Positions 4,710 through 41,109 of a stretch of 42,551 nt of DNA are shown piece by piece. The stretch covers positions 1 to 42,551 of the IMG/VR virus record IMGVR_UViG_3300017763_000042. One strand, 5' to 3'. The DNA comes from a virus. The notes beneath the pieces are model-generated. The model saw only the letters and a list, made by a program, of their open reading frames with translations. It was not told the DNA's origin and searched no databases. The translations under genes and the position numbers were made by a program. The first letter of the stretch is position 1. Every line of letters starts with the position of its first letter.

Positions 4710-5081
4710 TTAAGTCTCTGTATTATTTCTTGCAAAATCTAAATATAGTACTTCTTCATCTAGAAAAGGTAATATTTTAAGATTCACTACAATTTTAACA
4801 GTATGATCAAGTGCTTCGGTGAATATGTCTTGTAGTTCTACTCTAGAATCTTTCTCTACTACTCTACGAACCTCATCTTCTACTTCTTGGACAAGAAATT
4901 TGTCCAGTGGGTTCATAAGCATGTCTTCAATCCTGGTACCAAAAGAAGGTCTCATTACTCGCTCGCCTTTCTTTGCCTTGAGCTCATTGAGTAAGTCGGT
5001 CTTAATTAGTTCACCGTCCGTTAGTGTATACGGGGGTCTAATTTTTCCTATTGTACTAAAGCCTCGATATATGTTTGCCAT
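4710..5081 (-). CDS. gp25: Baseplate wedge protein gp25
   Basis: 123 residues from ATG 5081 (MANIYRGFSTIG). A longer reading from TTG 5096 is possible but less likely. Gp25 is the lysozyme-fold wedge protein that joins gp6 and the sheath; related proteins occur in type VI secretion baseplates. Family marks seen here are the PPYTLTDGELIKTDLLNELK segment, GERVMRPSFGTRIEDMLMNP and the C-terminal LDFARN. Length is normal for the family (T4 gp25 is about 132 residues). The stop is two bases before gp6. A GATAAATA late-promoter motif ends only five bases before the ATG, so if it is used the mRNA would be almost leaderless. Confidence 0.9.
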   Translation of the reverse strand: MANIYRGFSTIGKIRPPYTLTDGELIKTDLLNELKAKKGERVMRPSFGTRIEDMLMNPLDKFLVQEVEDEVRRVVEKDSRVELQDIFTEALDHTVKIVVNLKILPFLDEEVLYLDFARNNTET

Positions 5082-5086
5082 ATCAA

Positions 5087-5094
5087 TATTTATC
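5087..5094 (-). promoter_or_regulatory. Late promoter motif GATAAATA (gp25)
   Basis: Minus-strand GATAAATA, one mismatch from the T4 late consensus TATAAATA, immediately upstream of gp25. In T4, transcription starts about six bases past the motif, which here would fall at or next to the ATG. Confidence 0.5.
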
Positions 5095-5135
5095 AAGAAC
5101 CTTTAAAACACGTTTTAAATAAACCAAAAAAACGG

Positions 5136-7832: not shown

Positions 7833-10219
7833 TAGTCATCTGCTCCGTCATATGAATTCTGTGTCATATCAAGTTTTGCTAAACTCAATGCCGTTTGTTT
7901 TTTAGCATTAGTTTCTATTTCAAACATGCCACCACTAAAGTTTGCGGTTATACCAAATATTTGGTACACACCACTTAAAAAGAATGCTGTGCCTTGCTGA
8001 CTCATGTAACCGCTATTTTCATCTTCATCATCGACGTTAGGGTCTCTAACACGTGGTGTTTGCATTGTGAATAAAAAGTAGTTATCACTTCTATTGTATA
8101 CTATGTACTGATCTGTGGAATCTTCTTCTTCCTCATTTGCCTTCTTAACTTGTTTAGGTGCTTTTGGTTCTATTTCCGGTGGTCCTAAGTACCAAGGATC
8201 TCCTCTTACTTTTAAACCGAGGTCTACTAATATACTTGCGTCGTTTACGTTTTGATACATATACCCAAATAATGTGCCTTTAGCACCACCATCACTAGTG
8301 TTTGAATTGTTTACAATAACATTGTGGTCATACACCATACCAGGTAAAGGACCTACATCTGCTTCTTCACCTTTGAGAGCATTTGCTAGTGAGTTAGTAA
8401 CTTGTTGATCTGTTAGTTCGCCAATAACAGTTGGGCTACCACCTGCATCGTGCATTAGTTCAGCACTATAAATAAATCCACTTGGCTCTGGTTTATATGT
8501 TCCATCAAAATCATTTGTGGGTGTAGTATCTTTATTGTTATCAGAAGCCGCTGTTTGATAATAGTCTGTAGGGTTCTGTCCACCACTTTGCAAATAGTTT
8601 ATAGTTTGAGCTAATCTATTTCTTTGTTCTTTGTCTTTTCTTAGTTTCTTTCTTTCATCATCTGTTAGATTTAATCTGTCAGCAATTTTATCAAAATATT
8701 GATCATCGTCTTTTAATTTTTTAGCAATTTGTGTAGGATCTTCTACAGCCGCATCTGTTTTTGCTGATCTTTCTTTTCCTTCATTGTCACCATCTGTTGA
8801 AGGACTGCCAGGTGCATTTGGACTTGATGAAGCATCACCTAGATAACCTCCACCTGGTGCGGCCAATAATACTTGACCTGCTTTGTAAGATATGTCTGCA
8901 CTTAGGATTTGATCATTTAGTCCAGTATACAAATAATGATATGCTTTTTTAATTAGTAATTCGTTTACACGTTTTGTAACGTTTTCTTTAGACAGTTTAA
9001 ATTCGCTTTGCGATAAATTGTTGTCTTGGTCTGCTGTCTTATATATTATAGGCTTGTATGTAACTCTTCGAGCATAAGCATTACGTCTTGCGTCATAGCC
9101 GTTTTCTATATATTCCATATCAGCAGTCATTTTATACCAATATGTAAATGTTTGATTTAAATCTAATCCATGCTCGTCAATGATAGGATTATCTAACCCA
9201 CCTTTTTTTCTTGATGACTTATCTAAGAATGCTTCATTCATTACTAGCATAGTTGATAATATTCTGTGGAAGTTTGTTCCTTCTGGTACTTGTATTCTAT
9301 CTCTTCTCCAAAAACCTCCAGTGGCTTCTATGCCGCCATCTAAACTTTCTGGTGAGTCTTCTAACATCTTTTCAAATTCTTCACGTGATTTTATACCATA
9401 TGATTCTGCATTCATCAATCTGTTTAATTGTTCGGCATCTTTGTAATTACTATACTTTATACTGTCATCACCTAAAACTTCTTTTAGTTGACTTAAATCA
9501 AAAATAATTTCATCGCTGATAAGTTCTTCTTTTTTATTATTCTTTGTATAGTTTTCAATTGCTTCTGTTAGACTCTCAAAACACTCTGTAATGGTATCAC
9601 CTGTAAATGATGTATCAGCAGGTAATGTATAATACTTGTCGGTCCATGATTCGTCGTCACCAATAGTTACAAAAAAGTCATATGTACTTCCTGCATCTGT
9701 GATAGAAACATCTACTGTAGCAATATGACATTCGTAAATGTATGGACCTGCTATCTGTGTTTCTATTTCACCACCACCTTCTAAATCATCTAGATCTTCT
9801 TTATAACCCTTAAAATTTATTTCTAAAAATAACGGTACAGGTGCAAAAACACCTGCTTGTATTCCTAAATGTTTTTTAGCGGCCTGTATTTGATCTAATA
9901 AATCTGCGGCTCCTGGTTGTATTAGTGTAAACTGTGCCGATGTGGCAAAAGCACCACTGGCTCCTTTTTTAATGTCAATTGATAAGTCATCAATTTGTAC
10001 ACCTGTTACACTAGTCTGTGCAACAATAACTGTATTTTGAGGTTCGGCTGATTTTGCTTTTTTAAGATAACCACCTCCATCTGACGTAAGGTCAGGGATC
10101 ATATAAAGTTTTAATGTGTAAGTAGAATTTTGGTAAGCATCTAGAATATTACCTTGGACTCTGCCAAGATATCTATCTTCTTTTTCTGCTTCAGATTGCT
10201 TAGGATTTTTATCTGTCAT
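7832..10219 (-). CDS. Large baseplate hub-region structural protein (gp27-like by position)
   Basis: 795 residues between gp53 and gp5, with single-base stop/start overlap on both sides. Residues ~55-230 are beta-rich with repeated strand patterns (VTGVQIDDLSIDIKKGASGA, CHIATVDVSITDAGSTYDFF). Residues ~470-570 form a low-complexity, charged, Asp/Lys-rich linker. The C-terminal ~150 residues are again beta-rich (LVDLGLKVRGDPWYLGPPEI; AFFLSGVYQIFGITANFSGG). No enzyme motif is visible. Marine T4-like phages carry a large structural protein at this place. Adjacency to the OB-fold spike suggests that it supplies the gp27 hub function, but sequence identity with T4 gp27 (about 391 residues) is not evident by eye. 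A structure prediction would be decisive. Confidence 0.7.
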   Translation of the reverse strand: MTDKNPKQSEAEKEDRYLGRVQGNILDAYQNSTYTLKLYMIPDLTSDGGGYLKKAKSAEPQNTVIVAQTSVTGVQIDDLSIDIKKGASGAFATSAQFTLIQPGAADLLDQIQAAKKHLGIQAGVFAPVPLFLEINFKGYKEDLDDLEGGGEIETQIAGPYIYECHIATVDVSITDAGSTYDFFVTIGDDESWTDKYYTLPADTSFTGDTITECFESLTEAIENYTKNNKKEELISDEIIFDLSQLKEVLGDDSIKYSNYKDAEQLNRLMNAESYGIKSREEFEKMLEDSPESLDGGIEATGGFWRRDRIQVPEGTNFHRILSTMLVMNEAFLDKSSRKKGGLDNPIIDEHGLDLNQTFTYWYKMTADMEYIENGYDARRNAYARRVTYKPIIYKTADQDNNLSQSEFKLSKENVTKRVNELLIKKAYHYLYTGLNDQILSADISYKAGQVLLAAPGGGYLGDASSSPNAPGSPSTDGDNEGKERSAKTDAAVEDPTQIAKKLKDDDQYFDKIADRLNLTDDERKKLRKDKEQRNRLAQTINYLQSGGQNPTDYYQTAASDNNKDTTPTNDFDGTYKPEPSGFIYSAELMHDAGGSPTVIGELTDQQVTNSLANALKGEEADVGPLPGMVYDHNVIVNNSNTSDGGAKGTLFGYMYQNVNDASILVDLGLKVRGDPWYLGPPEIEPKAPKQVKKANEEEEDSTDQYIVYNRSDNYFLFTMQTPRVRDPNVDDEDENSGYMSQQGTAFFLSGVYQIFGITANFSGGMFEIETNAKKQTALSLAKLDMTQNSYDGADD

Positions 10220-10515
10220 TACAATACTCTATCAATAGTTTCTCTTGGAGGGATATGAATTTTTTTACCGGATGTAAAATCTGTCAAAGGGTCAATAATT
10301 ACATCTGGATTTCTTAGTGCAAAAACCCACCACAACTTTACAGTTCCATATAATTCATGTGCTAATAAATCCGGTCTATTCTCATATCGAGATTCTATTG
10401 CATAGAGTCGATCAGCGGTACTTTTAGGAATCTTAGGTAAGTTGTTCATACCTAAGTAAAACTTATTTACATCTGCTTTTTTTAAAAAACTTTGATTGCT
10501 ATGAAAACTTGCCAT
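10219..10515 (-). CDS. gp53: Baseplate wedge protein gp53
   Basis: 98 residues. The family core is plain: YENRPDLLAHELYGTVKLWW, then VFALRNPDVIIDPLTDFTSG and KKIHIPPRETI. Gp53 is a small wedge protein that binds the gp6-gp7 heterotrimer and helps wedges assemble round the hub. It is shorter than T4 gp53 (196 residues) and corresponds to its conserved part, as in other marine relatives. It shares one base with each neighbour, so translation is probably coupled through the operon. Confidence 0.9.
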   Translation of the reverse strand: MASFHSNQSFLKKADVNKFYLGMNNLPKIPKSTADRLYAIESRYENRPDLLAHELYGTVKLWWVFALRNPDVIIDPLTDFTSGKKIHIPPRETIDRVL

Positions 10516-11246
10516 TAAATAAATCCTTGATTGTACTGCTTGCCACTTGTAAATGCATTAAGATCAAATCTTTTTCTTGTTTTTCTGTATGTGTACTGTG
10601 GTGCTAATTCGATCATAACACTTGTTTCAGTTGGCATCATTGTAGTTGTGCCTTTAAATTTTACTGGAACGTAATCAACATCTGCAGGTAATTGGAAGTT
10701 ATAGTTCCTAATAATTACTGGCAGTTTGTTAAATCCAAATTCACCTAGATATTCAAATAGTAATACTGGTGGTGGAGTTCCGTAATACCCACCTGTTACA
10801 GCCGCGTCACCATAATATGCTTTAGTAACACTTCTTAAAAAATGAAATACTGCTAACATATACTGTCCTTCCTCTACTGTGTTTGCTGTAAACGTACCTG
10901 TGATAGGTAGTGTAGTAGGTCTAGAACTAATAAATGTATAAAACGGATAATTTGAGCCGTGTTGTTGTGCTTCGTTATAATCTACTGAGGCTTGCAAAAA
11001 TATGTCTGGTGTAAACGGGTAAACTATACCACCTCTATCTTGTAAAGGTTTGAGTATACTGTCTTTTTGTTCTTCACCTTTTGAGTCTACTAATCCATAG
11101 GCAAACTTCTCACCGCCACGTTTTGGCCGTATTCTTGCCCTCCAATCAACATCATTAAATGTTGTAGAGTCTGTTCTGCTTATCAATGAGTCAAACGCAT
11201 TTGTTGGTGTTTGTGCCTCTTGATTAAAATTTGTTTCGTCTGCCAT
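10515..11246 (-). CDS. Baseplate/tail-tube cap protein, gp48-like
   Basis: 243 residues, first gene of the minus-strand baseplate operon, with an AGGAG Shine-Dalgarno sequence and a GATAAATA late promoter just upstream. The core (GGIVYPFTPDIFLQASVDY, SNYPFYTFISSRPTTLPITG, FHFLRSVTKAYYG, then a FEYLGEFGFNKLPVIIRNYN strand block) resembles the tube-like fold of tail-tube initiators, and gene order before gp53 matches gp48 of cyanomyophages. Gp48 and gp54 cap the baseplate and seed tube polymerisation in T4. T4 gp48 is about 364 residues, so this is shorter. The structural role is fairly sure; gp48 rather than gp54 identity rests on position. Confidence 0.6.
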   Translation of the reverse strand: MADETNFNQEAQTPTNAFDSLISRTDSTTFNDVDWRARIRPKRGGEKFAYGLVDSKGEEQKDSILKPLQDRGGIVYPFTPDIFLQASVDYNEAQQHGSNYPFYTFISSRPTTLPITGTFTANTVEEGQYMLAVFHFLRSVTKAYYGDAAVTGGYYGTPPPVLLFEYLGEFGFNKLPVIIRNYNFQLPADVDYVPVKFKGTTTMMPTETSVMIELAPQYTYRKTRKRFDLNAFTSGKQYNQGFI

Positions 11247-11262
11247 AATTGCTCCTGCGTTA

Positions 11263-11270
11263 TATTTATC
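11263..11270 (-). promoter_or_regulatory. Late promoter motif GATAAATA (gp48-like operon), left arm of palindrome
   Basis: Minus-strand GATAAATA 16 bases upstream of the 10515-11246 gene, whose AGGAG sequence lies between. It forms a perfect inverted repeat with the plus-strand copy at 11273-11280, separated by two bases. Confidence 0.7.
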
Positions 11271-11272
11271 AC

Positions 11273-11280
11273 GATAAATA
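11273..11280 (+). promoter_or_regulatory. Late promoter motif GATAAATA facing gp55
   Basis: Plus-strand GATAAATA, right arm of the 18-base palindrome 11263-11280. It points at gp55, the sigma factor predicted to recognise this motif, so late-phase self-amplification of gp55 is possible. Confidence 0.5.
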
Positions 11281-11309
11281 ATAACGAGTTTTAATTTTAA
11301 AAAAAAACG

Positions 11310-11338
11310 TTGACTTTTGCAAAATAATGTATTATAAT
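11310..11338 (+). promoter_or_regulatory. Early sigma70-like promoter (gp55-gp47-gp46 operon)
   Basis: TTGACT at 11310-11315, a 17-base spacer and a perfect TATAAT at 11333-11338. It precedes gp55, which has an AAGGAG Shine-Dalgarno sequence. This is the best-formed host-type promoter in the window. Confidence 0.85.
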
Positions 11339-11361: not shown

Positions 11362-12228
11362 ATGGTACAGGCTAAGAAACAGAATTACTTAAACAATAAG
11401 GATCTACTAAAAGAAATACATAAGAGTAAGATGACTTATTGCTACATTCAAGATGAAAGATACTTGATGGTAGACATCATTGTTGATGATGTTAAAAAAA
11501 TCAACAAAGAAACAATTAAACAGGCACAATTAAACCGTGTTTCTAAATTGCAATCGACTGCTTATCAAGCCGCAGTAGCAAAAGGAGACTGGGATAAGAA
11601 ACCTAAACAAAAAGACTTTGCAGTAGACCCTCTCTCTATTCCGGTAGATGAGTTAGTATTTAGAGTTATGACATTTGAGCATATCCCAGATGAACCAGGT
11701 AGAAAGAAAACATGCAAAACACTTGCAGACACAAAAGCAAAAGTAAACTTTCCACCATTCAAGCATTATATACTTGATAGCAATGGTATCAATCCTAGAG
11801 AAGTTGCTAGAAGTCATTGGCAAGGTAGTTTAAGTAATGGTCAGTTTGATTGTGAACATGGACAGATTACAAATGAACTTGGCAGAATGTTTATGAAACT
11901 TGTTGAGCGTTACAGTCAAAGAGGTAACTGGAGAGGTTACACTTATGTAGACGAGATGCGTGGACAAGCATTAGTACAACTTGCACAAGTTGGATTGCAG
12001 TTTAATGAAGCAAAATCAGATAATCCGTTTGCATATTATACTGCAACGGTGAATAATAGTTTTACAAGAGTTCTAAATTTAGAAAAAAGAAATCAATCAA
12101 TACGTGATGATATTCTTATTGAAAGTGGGCACTTACCTAGTTACGGCAGACAAATTCAATATGAAAATGAAATGAAGGCCGCTAGAGCAGATGCACAAAC
12201 AGAATTAGAAAATTCACCACAAGAGTAA
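11362..12228 (+). CDS. gp55: Late-transcription sigma factor gp55
   Basis: 288 residues. In T4, gp55 is a small sigma-family protein that lets host RNA polymerase open late promoters (TATAAATA). The conserved part here is residues ~170-245 (ITNELGRMFMKLVERYSQRG, then GYTYVDEMRGQALVQLAQVG and NPFAYYTATVNNSFTRVLNL), matching the helical sigma region 2-like block in gp55 homologues. The N-terminal ~150 residues (LNNKDLLKEIHKSK and a basic middle) are longer than in T4 gp55 (185 residues), as in marine phages. The frame is preceded by AAGGAG. It heads an early operon with gp47 and gp46, the order seen in many T4-like phages. The ten GATAAATA motifs in this window are its likely targets. Confidence 0.85.
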   Translation: MVQAKKQNYLNNKDLLKEIHKSKMTYCYIQDERYLMVDIIVDDVKKINKETIKQAQLNRVSKLQSTAYQAAVAKGDWDKKPKQKDFAVDPLSIPVDELVFRVMTFEHIPDEPGRKKTCKTLADTKAKVNFPPFKHYILDSNGINPREVARSHWQGSLSNGQFDCEHGQITNELGRMFMKLVERYSQRGNWRGYTYVDEMRGQALVQLAQVGLQFNEAKSDNPFAYYTATVNNSFTRVLNLEKRNQSIRDDILIESGHLPSYGRQIQYENEMKAARADAQTELENSPQE

Positions 12229-13251: not shown

Positions 13252-15023
13252 TGCTCACGATTAAAAATGTAAGTGCAAAGAACTTTATGAGTATTGGTAA
13301 CAATACTCAAGCAGTAAACTTTGACACAGAATCACTAACATTAGTACTAGGGCACAACTTAGATTTAGGTGGTGACGGCAGTAGAAATGGTACTGGCAAA
13401 ACTACTATTATCAATGCACTCAGTTATGCATTGTATGGCGATGCACTAACAAACATTCGTAAAGATAATCTCATAAACAAAACAAACGCCAAAGGCATGA
13501 TTGTTACTGTTGATTTTGAAATCAACGGAATTGAATATCGAATCGAAAGAGGGCGTAGGCCAAATGTATTGAAGTTTTTTGTAAATGGATCTGAGGCGGC
13601 TGATGATGAGCAACAGGGCGATAGTAGAGAAACACAAAAAGATATTGAAAAGATAATTGGTTTCCCACATAATATGTTTAAGCATTTGATTGCATTAAAC
13701 ACATATACTGAACCTTTCCTCAGTATGAAAACAAATGATCAACGAGATATGATTGAGCAGTTGTTAGGTATTACAGAGATTAGTTCAAAAGCAGAAGTAC
13801 TAAAAGAAAAGTTAAAAGAAACTCGCGATAAAATTAAAGAAGAAGAACAACGAATAACCGCAGTAAACAATGCTAACGAACGTATTGGTAAAAATATACA
13901 AGAAATCGAATTACGTGGTAGAGCATGGGCTAAAAATAAAGAAGACAAAGTACATCAATTACAAACTAGTTTAGATGCATTACAACAAACTGATATTGAT
14001 GCAGAGTTAGAAAATCATAGACAAGCAACAGAAATAAATCAAAAGTATACACAAATACAAAGTGTACAAAATGAGGTTAAGCAACTTACAACCAGTTTAA
14101 AACGTAATGACGGTAACCTTGCAACACTTGTTAAAAATATTAAACTTGCTAATGAAGGTATATGCCCTGCGTGTGAACAAAGTACAGCACATTTAGATAC
14201 GCATGAAGAATACACAAAAGATCTAGAAACTAAATTAGCAGAAGAAAAATCTTACAGCGAAGAATTAAAGACTAAACTGTCAACATGTGAAAAGCAATTG
14301 ATTGACCTAGGCGAGTTACCTGAAACACCTATTACATTTTATAACAACATGGAAGATGCATTGGGACACATGCACAATGTTACTACACTAAAAGAACAAA
14401 TAGAAGAGAAGATTAAAGAACAAAATCCATACACTGAACAAGTTGAACAACTAAAAGTAAATGGTATGGAAGAAATTAGTTACGACTTAATAAACGAACA
14501 AACATATTTAAAAGAACATCAAGAGTTTTTACATAAGTTATTGACCAGTAAAGATAGTTTTATTCGTAAGAAAATTATTGATCAAAACTTGCAATATCTA
14601 AACTACAGACTAGGTCATTATTTAGACAAACTTGGCTTACCACATGATGTTAAGTTTAGCAGTGATCTAAGTGTAGAAATTACAGAGTACGGCAGAGACT
14701 TAGACTTTGATAATTTAAGTAGAGGTGAACGTAACAGACTTATACTAGGTATGAGTTGGGCATTTAGAGACATCTACGAAAGTTTAAATAGACCAATGAA
14801 TTTGATGTGTATCGACGAACTAGTTGACTCCGGAATGGATACTACAGGTGTTGAAAATGCATTAGCAGTTCTTAAGAAAATGGGTAGAGAGGCAAACAAG
14901 AACGTTTTCCTTATATCACACAAGGAAGAATTGCAAGGTCGTGTAAATAACGTCCTGTATGTAATCAAAGAAGGAGGATTCACTAGTTACAGTAACGATA
15001 TTGAAATCCTCGAAGAGACTTAA
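13251..15023 (+). CDS. gp46: Recombination endonuclease subunit gp46 (Rad50/SbcC-like ATPase)
   Basis: 590 residues. The N-terminal ABC half has Walker A NGTGKTT at residues 46-52. Long coiled coils flank a zinc-hook CPAC at 305-308. The C-terminal ABC half has the signature LSRGERN from residue 489, Walker B NLMCIDE ending at 523, a D-loop SGMD and the switch ISHKEE. These are all Rad50-type features, and length is close to T4 gp46 (560). It drives the gp47 nuclease through ATP-dependent conformational change and DNA tethering. Stop and start overlap as TAATG with both the upstream gp47 and the downstream GIY-YIG gene. Confidence 0.95.
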   Translation: MLTIKNVSAKNFMSIGNNTQAVNFDTESLTLVLGHNLDLGGDGSRNGTGKTTIINALSYALYGDALTNIRKDNLINKTNAKGMIVTVDFEINGIEYRIERGRRPNVLKFFVNGSEAADDEQQGDSRETQKDIEKIIGFPHNMFKHLIALNTYTEPFLSMKTNDQRDMIEQLLGITEISSKAEVLKEKLKETRDKIKEEEQRITAVNNANERIGKNIQEIELRGRAWAKNKEDKVHQLQTSLDALQQTDIDAELENHRQATEINQKYTQIQSVQNEVKQLTTSLKRNDGNLATLVKNIKLANEGICPACEQSTAHLDTHEEYTKDLETKLAEEKSYSEELKTKLSTCEKQLIDLGELPETPITFYNNMEDALGHMHNVTTLKEQIEEKIKEQNPYTEQVEQLKVNGMEEISYDLINEQTYLKEHQEFLHKLLTSKDSFIRKKIIDQNLQYLNYRLGHYLDKLGLPHDVKFSSDLSVEITEYGRDLDFDNLSRGERNRLILGMSWAFRDIYESLNRPMNLMCIDELVDSGMDTTGVENALAVLKKMGREANKNVFLISHKEELQGRVNNVLYVIKEGGFTSYSNDIEILEET

Positions 15024-15448
15024 TGAGCGAATGGACATTTAAAGGTAAAAAAGTAGACGCACTTCCGGAAGATTGTGAAGCATTTGTATATCTAATTACA
15101 AACACAACAAATGATAAAAAATATGTTGGTAAAAAACTTGCCAAATTCAAGACGACCAAACCTCCCTTAAAAGGAAAGAAGAACAAACGTCGTGGTACTA
15201 AAGAAAGTGACTGGCGTACTTATTGGGGGAGCTCAGATCATTTAAAAGAAGATGTAGAACTACTAGGTGAAGACAGTTTTATTAGAGAAATTTTATACTT
15301 TTGTCCTAGTCGAGGTTCTGCAGGCTACCTAGAGGCCAAAGAACAATTTGATCGACGAGTACTCGAATCAGATGAATATTATAACGGAATTATAAACGTA
15401 CGGATAGGTGGTTCAAAAATCCTACGAGAATTTTTACAAAAGATATAA
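15023..15448 (+). CDS. GIY-YIG nuclease-family protein
   Basis: 141 residues, start overlapping the gp46 stop (TAATG). The GIY-YIG core reads FVYLITNTTNDKKYVGKKL at residues ~21-39 (YLI and YVG in place of GIY and YIG). It is followed by a basic linker, a WRTYWGSS segment, a plausible catalytic Glu in YLEAKEQ near residue 104, and a conserved-type Asn in YYNGIINVRIGG. Proteins of this kind in T4-like phages are often free-standing homing endonucleases or host-DNA-degrading nucleases. Being translationally coupled to gp46/47 favours a domesticated role in DNA processing over recent invasion, which is inference. Non-coding, structured-looking sequence follows directly. Confidence 0.7.
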   Translation: MSEWTFKGKKVDALPEDCEAFVYLITNTTNDKKYVGKKLAKFKTTKPPLKGKKNKRRGTKESDWRTYWGSSDHLKEDVELLGEDSFIREILYFCPSRGSAGYLEAKEQFDRRVLESDEYYNGIINVRIGGSKILREFLQKI

Positions 15449-19660: not shown

Positions 19661-19902
19661 GCCATCCAATCACCGCTTTTATCTCCACTCTTGGCTTTGT
19701 TATATTTGTTAAGAGTGTTTATAAGAGTATCTCGTTCAACAGGACTAAGGTGCCATGCTTCTGAATAAGACACGGCGCCTTCACTGTATATAGCCAGCTC
19801 TGCTACTGTTTTGATAATTTTGCTCTGTTCTGCGTCGAGTTGACCTAAGTAGCCTGTAATTTCTTCAGGCTCTGCTGTGCCTAGGAACCCGTGAAAAAAT
19901 TT
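19657..19902 (-). CDS. -1 frameshift extension of the gp26-like assembly protein
   Basis: An 81-codon open frame in the -1 register relative to the gp26-like gene, from the slippery run at 19902 to TAA 19657-19659. It closes four codons upstream with TGA, so its overlap with the gp26-like frame is only about 30 bases, and the slippery sequence lies inside that overlap. There is no usable start codon near its beginning. The peptide looks like real protein: FLGTAEPEEITGYLGQLDA, then a helix AEQSKIIKTVAELAIY, then AWHLSPVERDTLINTLNKY, like the small helical C-terminal domain of frameshifted tail-assembly chaperones. The fusion would be about 363 residues. It fills the 220 bases otherwise without a gene and overlaps the convergent gene by only 3 bases. 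Confidence 0.7.
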   Translation of the reverse strand, partial: KFFHGFLGTAEPEEITGYLGQLDAEQSKIIKTVAELAIYSEGAVSYSEAWHLSPVERDTLINTLNKYNKAKSGDKSGDWMA

Positions 19903-20747
19903 ACAGGATCAAAGTTTATAGGTGCTACAAACTCTTCTCCACATTCTTCGTTACTACATGTAACGGCAATATCTTGTTTAACACCTTTAGTGTTTATGCC
20001 ATTTACTAGCTCTTCAATTTCTTTACCAGTTTTATTATCTGTGTTTTCTAAAAACTCTCTGATAGTTATTTTGTCTTTTACAGCAACATTTTCACCATCT
20101 TCGTTTGCATACGTGATCGATGATATGCTTTCAATTAAAAGTTCAAAGTTGAGATCTGCAAGTGTTACAAAACTTTCGTTAAATGCTTTTAATCTTGCTA
20201 GGTCGTCTTTCATTTCTGAAATACTTTGCATACTTCTTGTACTTTGGAAACTGGCAACACCAGCCTTGATAGTACTACTATAGTCAAACGGTAATGCTTT
20301 AATTAGTAATCCATTTGATAATGTAATAGAATATTCTTCATTTAGTTCTTCCATTGTAAGTAAAGATTGCTCAACACTAACTGTAAGATCAGTTGTAGTT
20401 TCACATTTAGGACACTTAGCCGCAACGTCTACATCGTCACCGGAACTTGCTCCTCTGATAGCAATTAGTAACGCATCTACATCGGCACTATAAAGTTTTT
20501 TAGGTTTCTTTATTTGTGGTACGCAACTCTTGATTAAACTAGATACTGCTTCACCATTTAATAGTGCATCAGGGTTTTTTAGTAATAATTCATCCTTTGT
20601 TGTCATAGGATAAATTGCCAATTCCTCATTTGTAGCGTCTGCGTCGATAATTCCCTCATCATAAAACTGACCACCACTTGGTAATTTTGTGTACAATTTA
20701 GGTGCTCTAAAATAGGCACTTAAAGGATTCTGTGTATTTTTGCTCAT
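19881..20747 (-). CDS. Baseplate hub assembly protein gp26-like / tail assembly chaperone
   Basis: 288 residues in the normal frame. It resembles the T4 gp26-type baseplate family: an N-terminal KLYTKLPSGGQFYDEG with ELAIYPMTTKDELLLKNPDA, where the phage chaperone-like core begins. There are zinc-ribbon-like cysteines: CPKC in the middle and CSNEEC near the C-terminus. The middle has LLIAIRGASSGDDVDVAAKC and LPFDYSST segments. In T4, gp26 helps hub assembly. The related family in other tailed phages lies beside the tape-measure gene and makes a second, frameshifted product. Here it is divergent from a tape-measure-like gene and carries a slippery site six codons before its stop. A GATAAATA motif at 20820-20827 is the likely promoter. 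Confidence 0.7.
   Translation of the reverse strand: MSKNTQNPLSAYFRAPKLYTKLPSGGQFYDEGIIDADATNEELAIYPMTTKDELLLKNPDALLNGEAVSSLIKSCVPQIKKPKKLYSADVDALLIAIRGASSGDDVDVAAKCPKCETTTDLTVSVEQSLLTMEELNEEYSITLSNGLLIKALPFDYSSTIKAGVASFQSTRSMQSISEMKDDLARLKAFNESFVTLADLNFELLIESISSITYANEDGENVAVKDKITIREFLENTDNKTGKEIEELVNGINTKGVKQDIAVTCSNEECGEEFVAPINFDPVNFFTGS
19893..19902 (-). promoter_or_regulatory. -1 ribosomal frameshift site
   Basis: On the minus strand the gp26-like frame reads GTA AAT TTT TTC. This holds two overlapping X XXY YYZ heptamers: A AAT TTT (19902-19896) and T TTT TTC (19899-19893). Both allow good re-pairing in the -1 frame. A small hairpin (AGGC/GCCT arms, 19867-19882) starts about 10 bases downstream and could act as a weak stimulator. 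Confidence 0.65.
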
Positions 20748-20770
20748 TAAAACTCCTGTTTATATTTTAT

Positions 20771-20778
20771 GATAAATA
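20771..20778 (+). promoter_or_regulatory. Late promoter motif GATAAATA (tape-measure gene)
   Basis: Plus-strand GATAAATA 87 bases upstream of the 20866 gene. The divergent minus-strand motif at 20820-20827 lies downstream of it, so the two transcripts would overlap by about 50 bases at their 5' ends. Confidence 0.6.
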
Positions 20779-20819
20779 CAATTAAATTAGTTATATCATT
20801 TATGATTTAACAGTTTACT

Positions 20820-20827
20820 TATTTATC
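20820..20827 (-). promoter_or_regulatory. Late promoter motif GATAAATA (gp26-like gene)
   Basis: Minus-strand GATAAATA 72 bases upstream of the gp26-like start codon, facing the plus-strand motif at 20771-20778. Confidence 0.6.
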
Positions 20828-20865
20828 TTAGTTAAAACTAGTTATAAAGGATTTTTCGAACAGTA

Positions 20866-23800
20866 ATGATTGAATTTCAAATAGACGGACAAAATTATCG
20901 CTTTCCAGATTGGATAACAGAGTCCACTGGCTTGCAAATGAGAGATTTGCTTAAAGAATTAGCAAAGACCCTCGGTGTCGAAGAAAAAAACTTAAATGCT
21001 ATATTAAAAGCACAACAAGAAGCAGTCGAAGAACTACAAGATCAAGGTAAAGACGGTAAGAAAACTGTTGATGAACAAAAGAAACGTGACGAAAAATTAT
21101 CAAGAAAAATTGACAACATGGTTGACGGACTCGACGATGTTAGAGCCGCAACAGAAAAAATAGAATTAGAAGTACCTAAATCCTTTAGGGACAAATTAGC
21201 AGACAGTTTAGAAGCAGACGGAGAAGTAATTCTCGGCTCTCTTGGCGGCGTAGCAGAAAAACTTGTTAAAGTAGGCGGAGTAATGGGCGGTGCCTTATTG
21301 GGTGGCGCAGGTTATGTTGGTAGCAAACTAATGGAAGCCGGTGATACTGTAAACGGTTTAGTTAAAAGCGGTATAGGTTTTAATCAAACGTTTGCCAGTG
21401 TAGGTGGAACAGCCACAACTGCTACAGCACAACTAGGTGCATTAGGCTTAGGCTTCTCAGAAGCCGCCGAATTGATGAAACAAAATTCTAATGTAATTGC
21501 TACACAAGGATTTAAACGTTTTGATTCAACAATGAAATTTGCCGCTGATACTTCAGAAGAACTAGGTATGAGCTTTTCTGACAGCATGGAAACATTTGCT
21601 GAAGCATTATCATCACGTCAACGTTTATTAGATCTAAGTGGTGTAAATCAAACTAGATTAAATACGCAAATTGCAAAAACAACCAAAATACAAACGGTGT
21701 ATGCTACAGCACTTGGCGAAAGTGTAGATGAGATACAGGCGTTTGTTGATGGCTTATTGTTTAATAACGGCACACTAACAGCATCTATACTGAGATTTAG
21801 TAACACAGTAAGAAGTGATTTAGTTGCTGGCCTAGAAGTATTTGCTGGTGGCCTTAGAGCAATGGGCGGTAAGTCTGGTGAATCTATTGCAGAAGCATTC
21901 CTCGAAGCAGGTGCCAAGGGTGCTATAGGTTTAAGTGAAAGTGCTATAGGACTAGTAACAGCATTACCTAATCTTGCTGGTCCAATGAACGAATTTATTA
22001 GTGGTATTCAAAATGGTACACTAAGCCAAGATCAAGCCAACGATATGGTACAAGGCTTGACAAGTAATTTAGGTAATTTAAGTAGTACAGAAAAAGAAAG
22101 AATTAGATTACTTGCTAGGGCAGGTGATGAGTCTGCACAAATGTTAGCAAACTCTATTGCACAGTTTGAACAGTCTGAAAAGAAATTAGAAGACATAAAC
22201 AAACAATTAGGCGTTCCATTAAACATGGACCTTGTGCAAAAGGGTAGAAACGAATTTGCAAAAGTTTTAGCACAGGCAGGCGGAATGGTAGAAAGTACAT
22301 TCTTTACTTTGTTTGCTGATCCAGGTGTGACAAAAGCACTAATGGATGGTGTCAAAGAAATAATGGGTGTGTTTGGAATTGCCACAGATGATATGTCTGG
22401 GTTAAGAGACAATGCAAAAGAATTTGCAAAGAACTTAGCCGAAAAAGCAATACCAATTATAAAATCAGTTGCCGCAAGTTTAAAAGAATTTGCAGAATAT
22501 TTAAGAGATACATTTCAAGAAGGTGGTATCAGCGGTGTAATTGGCGACTTAATGAGTAAAGCCGCAGGTGCAGTAGTTAAAGCATTATTCAAAGGTTTAC
22601 TGATCTTTGGTACTATGTTGTTCGCGGCAAGTGCCGCCAAAGTTGCATTTATGACATACGTTATGCCATCGGTAAAAGACTTTGCAGTTAAAATGTTCCA
22701 AGGCTCTGCCGGAGCAGGTAAGTTTCTTTTTGATAAAGCAAAAGGATGGATGGGCGGTTTGTTTGATCCAAAAAGTTCAGGCAAGTTAGCCAAATTTGCA
22801 CAAAGCTCAGCAGGCTTTATTAAAGACAAAGCATCTGGTCTTGCAGGCAGTGATACTGGAAAAGCAATAGCAGGTAAATTAAGTAAGTTCCAAAAAGACG
22901 GTGCCAAGATGACAGAAAATTTAACTAAATCTGTTACAGGCGGCGGCAAGAGTGGCGGTTTCTTAAAAAGTATAGCAGACGGTGTTTCTAAATTTGGTGG
23001 AACTAAAGTAATTAAAGGTGCGGCAAGTTTAGCATTGTTAGGTGCTTCAATAACACTAGCGGCAATAGGATTAAAAACATTTAATGAAGTAGACTTTACT
23101 TCTATTATAAAAGGCACAATAGCAGTAGGTGGCTTAGCCATGTTGGCACAAACACTAGGCAAAGGCTCAACAGCAATGATAAAAGGTGCGGCGGCAGTTG
23201 CAATTTTAGGTGCGTCAGTTATTCCATTAGCAGTTGGTCTCAACATAATGAAAGACGTTGGCATTGGAACTATTGGTGTACTAGCGGCAGGCTTAATAAC
23301 ATTAGGTGTAGCGGCCGCGGCAATGGGTACTTTCTTACCACTTATACTAATGGGTGCAGTAGCCATAGGTGCTTTGGGTGTAGCAATACTACCGTTTGCA
23401 TTAGCGGCAAACTTGTTAGGTGGTGCAATAGAATCAATTACTAATGGTTTAGGAGCAATCGCTGACTTACCAATTTTAGAAGTAGCAGGATCATTACTGG
23501 TACTAGGTGCAACATTTACAATGATGTTACCATTTATTCCTGGCTTATTGCTTACTAGTGTAGCATTAGGACTTATGGGTATTGCACTAATACCATTTGC
23601 CTTAGGTGCAGTATTGGCCGCAAAAGCATCTCAAGGATTACCAGAATTATTCCAAGCATTAGCTCAAGTAAATTGGGTAAACCTTATGTTGGCCGCTCCA
23701 GCATTATTAAGTTTAGCGGCAGGTATGATGGCATTAAGTGCCGGTGGTTTAATAAGTGGGTTGCTAGATGGTATAGGCAAACTGTTTGGCAGTGAATCAC

Positions 23801-24567
23801 CATTTGATAAATTGGCAACACTTTCTCAGAATGCAAAACACATTGTAGAAATGTCTAAAGAAATGCGTAACATGAGTTCTACAATGGGAGAATTTGAAAG
23901 TGCATTAGAGGCCATAGATGCAAACAAAATAAACGACAAGTTTGTGGTTATTGCAGATGGTATATATGTAATGGTTAAAGCATTAGAATCATTAGGCATG
24001 GGTTCAATGGCAAAACTGGTATTGTTAAAAGCAATGGGTGTAATGCCACAAGCACAGGCACCAGCAAAACAAAAAACTCCAGCACCAATTGGATTTGGTA
24101 TGGACAATGTAGAGAAAGATCCATTAGCAGGAACCGAAGTAGATAAATCCAAAGAAAAAACAACAAGTTTTAGACAGACACGAAGAGAAACTACTAAAAA
24201 AGAAGCCGGTATTGTTACAATGCGTGATGGCAAACCAGTTGAACTAACGCCAGAACAACAGAAAAAAGTAGATGGTGTAAGAGAACTCAAAAAGATGATG
24301 GCCGGCTCTGCAAAAATACCAGAAAGACAAAGTCAGTCAATAGATCCTAAGGCAGTTCCTGTAACAGGACAACGTGAACTTATTGGACCAGAAATACCAG
24401 GTGCATCAGGCCCAACACAACCTAAGGCTGATATGGTAGGTCCTAAAAAGCCAGAAGGACCACAAGATATGTCGCAGAGCTACTTAGAACAAATGGTTGC
24501 ACTACAACACGAACAAATAAAACTTCTCAAGAAACAAGTCAAAGCAACTGGCGAAATAGATATCTAA
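20866..24567 (+). CDS. Tail tape-measure-like protein
   Basis: 1233 residues. The N-terminal ~100 residues are charged and helical (LLKELAKTLGVEEKNLNAIL, then a Lys/Glu coiled coil). Residues ~115-560 mix Gly/Ala-rich and helical stretches. Residues ~560-960 hold many hydrophobic, Ala/Gly/Leu-rich segments (for example TLGVAAAAMGTFLPLILMGA) like the membrane-active parts of tape measures. The C-terminus is Pro/Lys-rich and ends in a short coiled coil (QMVALQHEQIKLLKKQVK). It lies next to the gp26-like chaperone and upstream of the portal. T4 gp29, which sets tail length, has 590 residues; this is about twice that. Function is inferred from composition, size and position. A large membrane-interacting virion protein is the alternative. 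Confidence 0.65.
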   Translation: MIEFQIDGQNYRFPDWITESTGLQMRDLLKELAKTLGVEEKNLNAILKAQQEAVEELQDQGKDGKKTVDEQKKRDEKLSRKIDNMVDGLDDVRAATEKIELEVPKSFRDKLADSLEADGEVILGSLGGVAEKLVKVGGVMGGALLGGAGYVGSKLMEAGDTVNGLVKSGIGFNQTFASVGGTATTATAQLGALGLGFSEAAELMKQNSNVIATQGFKRFDSTMKFAADTSEELGMSFSDSMETFAEALSSRQRLLDLSGVNQTRLNTQIAKTTKIQTVYATALGESVDEIQAFVDGLLFNNGTLTASILRFSNTVRSDLVAGLEVFAGGLRAMGGKSGESIAEAFLEAGAKGAIGLSESAIGLVTALPNLAGPMNEFISGIQNGTLSQDQANDMVQGLTSNLGNLSSTEKERIRLLARAGDESAQMLANSIAQFEQSEKKLEDINKQLGVPLNMDLVQKGRNEFAKVLAQAGGMVESTFFTLFADPGVTKALMDGVKEIMGVFGIATDDMSGLRDNAKEFAKNLAEKAIPIIKSVAASLKEFAEYLRDTFQEGGISGVIGDLMSKAAGAVVKALFKGLLIFGTMLFAASAAKVAFMTYVMPSVKDFAVKMFQGSAGAGKFLFDKAKGWMGGLFDPKSSGKLAKFAQSSAGFIKDKASGLAGSDTGKAIAGKLSKFQKDGAKMTENLTKSVTGGGKSGGFLKSIADGVSKFGGTKVIKGAASLALLGASITLAAIGLKTFNEVDFTSIIKGTIAVGGLAMLAQTLGKGSTAMIKGAAAVAILGASVIPLAVGLNIMKDVGIGTIGVLAAGLITLGVAAAAMGTFLPLILMGAVAIGALGVAILPFALAANLLGGAIESITNGLGAIADLPILEVAGSLLVLGATFTMMLPFIPGLLLTSVALGLMGIALIPFALGAVLAAKASQGLPELFQALAQVNWVNLMLAAPALLSLAAGMMALSAGGLISGLLDGIGKLFGSESPFDKLATLSQNAKHIVEMSKEMRNMSSTMGEFESALEAIDANKINDKFVVIADGIYVMVKALESLGMGSMAKLVLLKAMGVMPQAQAPAKQKTPAPIGFGMDNVEKDPLAGTEVDKSKEKTTSFRQTRRETTKKEAGIVTMRDGKPVELTPEQQKKVDGVRELKKMMAGSAKIPERQSQSIDPKAVPVTGQRELIGPEIPGASGPTQPKADMVGPKKPEGPQDMSQSYLEQMVALQHEQIKLLKKQVKATGEIDI

Positions 24568-41074: not shown

Positions 41075-41082
41075 TATTTATC
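41075..41082 (-). promoter_or_regulatory. Late promoter motif GATAAATA (43-residue gene)
   Basis: Minus-strand GATAAATA 112 bases upstream of ATG 40962. It is back to back with the plus-strand motif at 41102-41109. Confidence 0.6.
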
Positions 41083-41101
41083 AAATTACTGGAGTTTAAA
41101 T

Positions 41102-41109
41102 GATAAATA
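41102..41109 (+). promoter_or_regulatory. Late promoter motif GATAAATA (membrane protein-csgFG operon)
   Basis: Plus-strand GATAAATA 56 bases before the chosen ATG 41166. It implies that the two membrane proteins, csgF and csgG are late genes. Confidence 0.65.

Follow-up and report, generated by a model that had tools for sequence, protein, structure and literature searches.

The region between a gp55-family late sigma factor gene and a divergent baseplate operon raises the question of whether the two opposed late promoter boxes found there form one palindromic unit, through which gp55 would feed back on its own late expression, as an initial annotation proposed, or whether the boxes are separate parts of a more complex site. 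The region lies in an IMG/VR virus record of 42,551 bases, the whole of which is referred to here as the window. On the plus strand, the gene at positions 11362 to 12228 encodes a 288-aa protein that matches phrog_12791 (E value of 5e-97) and phrog_234 (2e-26), bearing out its assignment as a gp55-family late sigma factor, and is followed downstream by gp47-like and gp46-like genes. The minus-strand operon that diverges from gp55 comprises a lead gene for a virion structural protein (10515 to 11246), a gp53-like gene in second position (10219 to 10515), and a large virion structural gene, with phrog_12050 and phrog_7145 covering the lead/gp53-like pair. The site is best read as a composite region of divergent promoters in a T4-like jumbo phage. 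Elsewhere in the window, a SegE-like GIY-YIG endonuclease (Pfam E value of 2e-33), whose best PHROG match is NAD synthetase, is located directly after gp46 (15023 to 15448).

Two opposed copies of the late box were found 2 bases apart, as annotated: a left arm at 11263 to 11270 on the minus strand (plus-strand reading TATTTATC), facing the leftward operon, and a right arm, GATAAATA, at 11273 to 11280 on the plus strand, pointing to gp55. The arrangement had been described as a perfect 18-base palindrome; the two 8-bp arms are indeed inverted repeats, but the AC at the center is not self-complementary, giving a structure of 8 + 2 + 8. By T4 geometry the predicted late starts are 11257 (minus) and 11286 (plus), the latter being the position given previously. 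In the window, GATAAATA is present in 10 copies against a shuffled mean of 3.1, a number reached in 0 of 100 shuffles; TATAAATA occurs once, with 5.6 copies expected. The late boxes of the window precede portal, tail-fiber, and baseplate genes; thus an 8-bp NATAAATA box is enriched over chance before structural genes, as in T4-type late promoters. Only one pair of opposed boxes separated by 3 nt or fewer was identified in the window, and across 300 first-order Markov resamples the mean number of such pairs was 0.0 for GATAAATA and 0.003 when the right arm was allowed to be any NATAAATA.

These boxes share with the T4 late promoter (TATAAATA, used by gp55 together with gp33 and the gp45 clamp) the 8-bp form, the position before structural genes, and a gp55-family sigma factor encoded in the same genome, here within the window itself. 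In S-PM2 and other cyanophages the reported late motif is NATAAATA (PMC2984593), and in jumbo phage CBB it is ATAAATA (PMC5259590). In PMC2988020, the T4 late box spans -13 to -6 and no conserved -35 or upstream element is described; the boxes analyzed here differ from that account in that the first base is G in most copies and in that a subset carries a conserved palindrome upstream.

The best 80 of 598 IMG/VR loci related to gp55 were compared, which together with the window gave 45 distinct upstream sequences. The left arm was identical in all 45, and its invariance, together with its position ahead of the leftward structural/gp53 operon, makes it very probably that operon's late promoter, as had been suggested. 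The sequences fall into subgroup A (29 distinct sequences from 44 loci, including the window) and subgroup B (16 sequences from 37 loci). A right arm matching NATAAATA was present in 28 of the 29 distinct subgroup A sequences and in none of the 16 from subgroup B; its variants within subgroup A were GATAAATA (n = 19), AATAAATA (n = 7), TATAAATA (n = 2), and AATAAATT (n = 1), with the arms 2 nt apart except in two sequences, where the distance was 1 nt. The comparison of relatives that the initial annotation had called for therefore upheld the left arm throughout and the right arm in subgroup A only. Dyad symmetry as a selected feature was rejected, as the first base of the right arm drifts while that of the left is fixed and subgroup B has no right arm. 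On this comparison, the rightward arm looks like an independent late box, specific to subgroup A, and not like half of a conserved dyad.

A second palindrome, not mentioned in the initial annotation, was identified at 11278 to 11295, 7 nt upstream of the leftward late box and matching at 14 of 16 positions. It is a copy of an 18-bp element with the consensus ATTAAAACNNGTTTTAAT that lies 6 to 7 nt (rarely 3 nt) upstream of GATAAATA and that, at gp55, overlaps the right arm. At this locus the element scored at least 12/16 in all 45 distinct upstream sequences (best 80 of 598 loci plus the window) and in 0 of 45 at control offsets. The spacer is 6 nt in subgroup B and in two subgroup A sequences and 7 nt in the remainder of subgroup A; many subgroup B copies read ATTAAAACTAGTTTTAAT, and those of subgroup A read ATAAAAACGTATTTTAAT and similar. 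On the plus strand, position 3 of the 18-mer is A in 28 of 29 subgroup A sequences and T in all 16 from subgroup B. An A at this position completes the right arm and weakens the palindrome, and its retention in subgroup A at the palindrome's expense suggests selection on the right arm as such.

The association between palindrome and box was then measured across 19 records (the window and 18 relatives; 1,132,141 bases, with eight records in part). A GATAAATA box was found within 0 to 9 nt of 7 of 7 palindromes scoring 16, 13 of 13 scoring 15, and 26 of 29 scoring 14, falling to 12 of 41 at a score of 13 and 7 of 285 at 12. Thus 46 of the 49 palindromes of at least 14/16 adjoin GATAAATA and three do not, and at a threshold of 13/16 the proportion was 58 of 90, compared with 5 of 354 for 12 permuted palindromes. 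As some of the 19 records are near-duplicates and the raw counts overstate independence, 127 nonredundant sites were taken from the 174 GATAAATA sites; copies of at least 13 were found at these with spacers of 3 (n = 4), 6 (n = 7), 7 (n = 16), and 9 nt (n = 1), against seven copies in total over the 85 offsets from 16 to 100. Spacers of 6 and 7 nt with copies of at least 11 occurred 60 times at the 174 GATAAATA boxes and 4 times at 133 other NATAAATA boxes; in these records the element is linked with the former and not the latter. A pattern search of IMG/VR for AAAACNNGTTTT followed by GATAAATA at gaps of 4 to 18 nt returned at least 120 stretches, the matches listed including at least 16, 34, and 37 at gaps of 6, 9, and 10, respectively, and at least 39 at all other gaps; control gaps of 24 to 38 gave 108 stretches, here a full count, and were not flat (23 at gap 28).

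The genes that carry the element are few. All 57 pairs with a score of at least 13 in the 19 records (spacers of 3, 6, 7, and 8 nt examined) precede genes for five proteins: gp25 (n = 19, one per record), the lead protein of the gp53 operon (n = 13), a probable tape measure protein (n = 11), a 205-aa phrog_11259 protein (n = 8), and a gp26-like baseplate protein (n = 6, all with a spacer of 3 nt). The tape measure assignment is based on a weak family match (E value of 1e-5) in a 340-kb relative, G001, that was absent in the others tried. In further contigs, defined by a 120-nt mid-stretch without an exact match in the 19 records, though many are still relatives, 45 of 53 listed matches at gaps of 9 to 10 nt and 6 of 10 at a gap of 6 nt (51 of 63 in total) precede the same five proteins, compared with 0 of 39 listed at other gaps. 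In G001, 5 of 61 GATAAATA boxes have the element, which argues that late promoters do not generally require it. The lack of conserved sequence at -35 that is characteristic of T4-type late promoters thus does not hold for the palindrome-bearing subset but does for the remaining boxes, 56 of the 61 in G001 scoring below 13/16. No earlier report of such a late promoter element was found in a search of the open-access literature.

Four of the 10 GATAAATA boxes in the window have the element. Besides that of the gp53 operon, these are the minus-strand box at 5087 to 5094, with its palindrome at 5102 to 5119 (14/16, spacer of 7 nt), before a 123-aa gp25-like baseplate wedge protein (4710 to 5081; phrog_261, E value of 2e-13); the plus-strand box at 20771 to 20778, with its palindrome at 20746 to 20763 (13/16, spacer of 7 nt) overlapping the start of the divergent gp26-like gene, before the 1,233-aa probable tape measure gene (20866 to 24567); and the minus-strand box at 20820 to 20827, with its palindrome at 20831 to 20848 (13/16, spacer of 3 nt), before the gp26-like gene (19881 to 20747). 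The boxes without the element are those of the portal gene and two tail-fiber genes, those at 41075 and 41102, and the right arm. The late boxes of the tape measure and gp26-like genes (20771 to 20827) face each other 41 nt apart, and the two late transcripts would consequently overlap; similar facing arrangements were observed in seven further records. In a sixth gene, encoding a 104-aa protein, the palindrome precedes the late box at different spacings, including a spacer of 0 in two relatives (L406 and L407).

Cultivated jumbo phages of the RaK2/GAP32/PA5oct type resemble the window in having gp55 divergent from structural genes and in the ATAAATA late motif, which is the one reported for CBB. 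In the eight compared, the genes from which gp55 diverges are structural or unnamed, two phages having an additional gene in between, and a leftward TATTTATN box is present in seven, but no right arm was found at gp55 in any of the eight. Orthologs of gp25, the 205-aa protein, and gp26 were each identified in all eight, with a NATAAATA box within approximately 220 nt before the matches in four, five, and seven phages, respectively; unlike in the window, palindrome scores before these orthologs did not exceed 10/16 (spacers of 3 and 5 to 8 nt). A relaxed palindrome pattern (3 mismatches) gave 83 matches in the eight genomes, and its reversed control gave 110. With any spacer from 0 to 11 nt allowed at the gp53-operon promoter, scores of 12/16 were reached in Phosso and RaK2; this was taken for chance, although a diverged copy is possible in Phosso (spacer of 6 nt). 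Within the limits of these comparisons, the element is a feature of the uncultivated clade.

Beyond the palindrome at gp55, the early promoter noted initially was confirmed as a strong, near-consensus sigma70-type sequence, with TTGACT at 11310 to 11315 and TATAAT at 11333 to 11338 on the plus strand, spaced by 17 nt. A TTGAC...TATA(A/C/T)T promoter was present in 47 of 47 distinct gp55 upstream rows (best 80 of 598 loci). In the window and 28 of 29 subgroup A sequences, but not subgroup B, this promoter stands in tandem with a late box, and a late start for gp55 is plausible in the window's subgroup only; the positive feedback first proposed is thereby confined to subgroup A, the right arm being absent from subgroup B and the cultivated phages. 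Early-plus-late tandem promoters have already been described in RB49, S-PM2, and Syn9 (PMC2984593), and the wiring of gp55 is of this known type, except that the gp55 late box faces away from an adjacent, divergent late promoter and overlaps that promoter's upstream element. The proposal that the two arms compete for polymerase is compatible with the presence of both boxes in subgroup A but appears too simple, since the leftward promoter's element extends over the end of the right arm and over the predicted start of the latter, from -8 to +10 relative to 11286, so that a protein bound at 11278 to 11295 should block the rightward late start.

Two further features of the gp55 upstream region were observed in relatives. 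In subgroup B (L044 to L080), TAAATA is present in every row a few nucleotides before the gp55 early -35 sequence, at a nearly fixed 44 to 45 nt from the leftward late box and with a variable preceding base; when this was tested as a displaced late promoter, NCTAAATA and NGTAAATA boxes showed no ATG-distance peak in four subgroup B records. A gp55 leader motif, TATAAA(C/T)GAAn...ATA(G/A)TTTTGAGG, is common to 53 of 80 relatives (L007 to L079; best 80 of 598) but not the window. Among 25 distinct leaders its C/G and T/A states are always paired (15 and 10, respectively), and 11 of the 19 records contain the motif, once each. Folding of the relatives' leaders was no better than that of shuffled sequences when a hairpin was sought; translational control of gp55 by the motif is possible.

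The position of late boxes relative to start codons was also distinctive. At 46 of the 174 GATAAATA sites in the 19 records, the ATG of an open reading frame of 50 aa or more lies exactly 5 nt downstream of the box, the next most common distance being 17 nt (11 sites). The gp25 gene accounts for 19 of these 46 cases, one in every record, including that of the window (5081 to 5094), and in G001 12 of 61 boxes have this distance. At other boxes it was found in 3 of 56 (AATAAATA), 3 of 34 (CATAAATA), and 0 of 43 cases (TATAAATA, with 4 of 43 at 6 nt). By T4 geometry the A of such an ATG would be +1, which suggests leaderless late mRNAs.

A modest preference goes to a reading in which a dimeric phage-encoded regulator would bind the palindrome and act on the gp55 polymerase, setting apart a late tail sub-regulon and rendering the late gp55 start blockable. 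The leftward gp55-type promoter, GATAAATA with a start near 11257, would drive the gp53/baseplate operon, and the palindrome would mark a set comprising gp25, the gp53-operon lead, the probable tape measure, the gp26-like protein, and the 205-aa protein. With a spacer of 7 nt the palindrome would occupy approximately -38 to -21, a region devoid of any element in T4 late promoters, and an 18-bp dyad would suit a dimeric protein. In T4 middle promoters, a MotA site at about -30 takes the place of the -35 element, and the predicted regulator could act on the gp55 polymerase from this same region. The two arrangements are alike in an upstream protein site (predicted here) that replaces the -35 element; relative to the MotA box TGCTTtA described in PMC9004378, however, the -30 site is an 18-bp palindrome of different sequence, ATTAAAACNNGTTTTAAT, and the -10 sequence is the late box GATAAATA. 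On the rightward side, the early promoter would start gp55, and in subgroup A a second late box, accommodated within the 7-nt spacer and the proximal half of the palindrome, may provide a late start at 11286 that the bound protein would block. In a fuller version, held more tentatively and at somewhat below an even chance, the dimeric phage protein near -30 would replace a missing sigma region 4 as a second layer of late transcription, switching a five-gene tail/baseplate sub-regulon, in part leaderless, apart from the head and fiber genes and, at gp55, turning the baseplate operon on and late gp55 off.

The same site could instead be the operator of a repressor, with the bound phage protein limiting baseplate and tail genes and thus avoiding an excess of low-copy tail starters. 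The position next to the box and the spacing classes of 3 and 6 to 7 nt, with the variable spacing at the 104-aa gene, are easier to accommodate on these terms, and such uneven classes fit a polymerase-contacting activator less well; the spacer of 3 nt at the gp26-like gene and the variation at the 104-aa gene favor repression or tolerance. The nearly constant spacing (6 or 7 nt) at four of the five proteins, however, suggests polymerase contact and favors activation, which we rank ahead on this basis, and repression is considered rather unlikely. A model without a dedicated regulator, in which the element is an A/T-rich, nondimeric docking site for a nucleoid-type (DsbA/GapR-like) protein or an UP-like element for polymerase, draws on its A/T richness and on T4 DsbA. 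Two T4 late promoters are overlapped by A/T-rich DsbA sites (PMC2988020), and a proposal in PMC7824862 likens DsbA to GapR and has it bring polymerase to late promoters. A relative of DsbA is present in G001, matching phrog_639 (E value of 4e-8, in a search in which 9 of 14 cellular control genomes also gave weak matches, with E values as high as 10) and, better, phrog_12534 (3e-17), but its Pfam DsbA match is below the cutoff, and DsbA relatives are also encoded by RaK2, PA5oct, and GAP32, where no such element was found. Together with the sequence-specific dyad (C8 in 31 and G11 in 25 of 36 copies) and the near lack of association for permuted palindromes of equal composition, this makes a docking site improbable. 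We give similarly little credence to the initial model taken alone, in which the inverted boxes form a unit whose arms compete and gp55 feeds back positively; the window and subgroup A do have both boxes, but the absence of the right arm from all of subgroup B and all eight cultivated relatives, and the drift of its first base alone, speak against it, and it leaves the palindrome at 11278 to 11295 and the copies at four other tail genes unexplained.

Late transcription in T4 is the textbook example of promoters that consist of one 8-bp element and are activated by a clamp with no sequence recognition of its own. An extra palindromic site, found mainly at five tail genes, suggests a separately controlled late gene set not known from T4, and a conserved upstream element that appears to define a tail sub-regulon is the better finding of this locus than gp55 feedback. 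If a second sequence-specific late element is tied to tail genes, relatives of T4 would control one assembly pathway apart from the others, raising the questions of which protein reads the palindrome and whether it uses the polymerase surface used by gp33. Among nine records, five of which are fragments or of unknown completeness, phrog_254 (gp33) matched only T4. The long N-terminal part of gp55 is unlikely to be the reader, as cultivated gp55 relatives align over approximately their full length and have no palindrome. The 104-aa protein (G001:C1 near 42338, minus strand; L266) was also considered as a regulator; this is possible but was not supported. In its favor, its late promoter has the palindrome at other spacings in G001 and L266 and palindromes of at least 13/16 in 6 of 80 relatives. 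Against it, the family is widespread, with at least 599 relatives and an invariant YPGPKYKKVSFSN block, and its predicted model (mean pLDDT of 86) gave no clear match against the PDB (best Foldseek E value of 1.0; best Z score of 5.1, to Tic22). Inverted repeats before its late box are only mildly enriched, with 7 to 8 of 8 arm matches in 12 of 77 cases against 5.3 expected.

Late boxes were also observed in two other settings. In the window, a divergent pair 19 nt apart (41075 to 41109) has no palindrome. In another record (G003, near 69539 on the plus strand), a late box precedes a 425-aa open reading frame with CVVCH at its start, which we take to be a c-type heme motif; this may be a phage-borne cytochrome-like protein.
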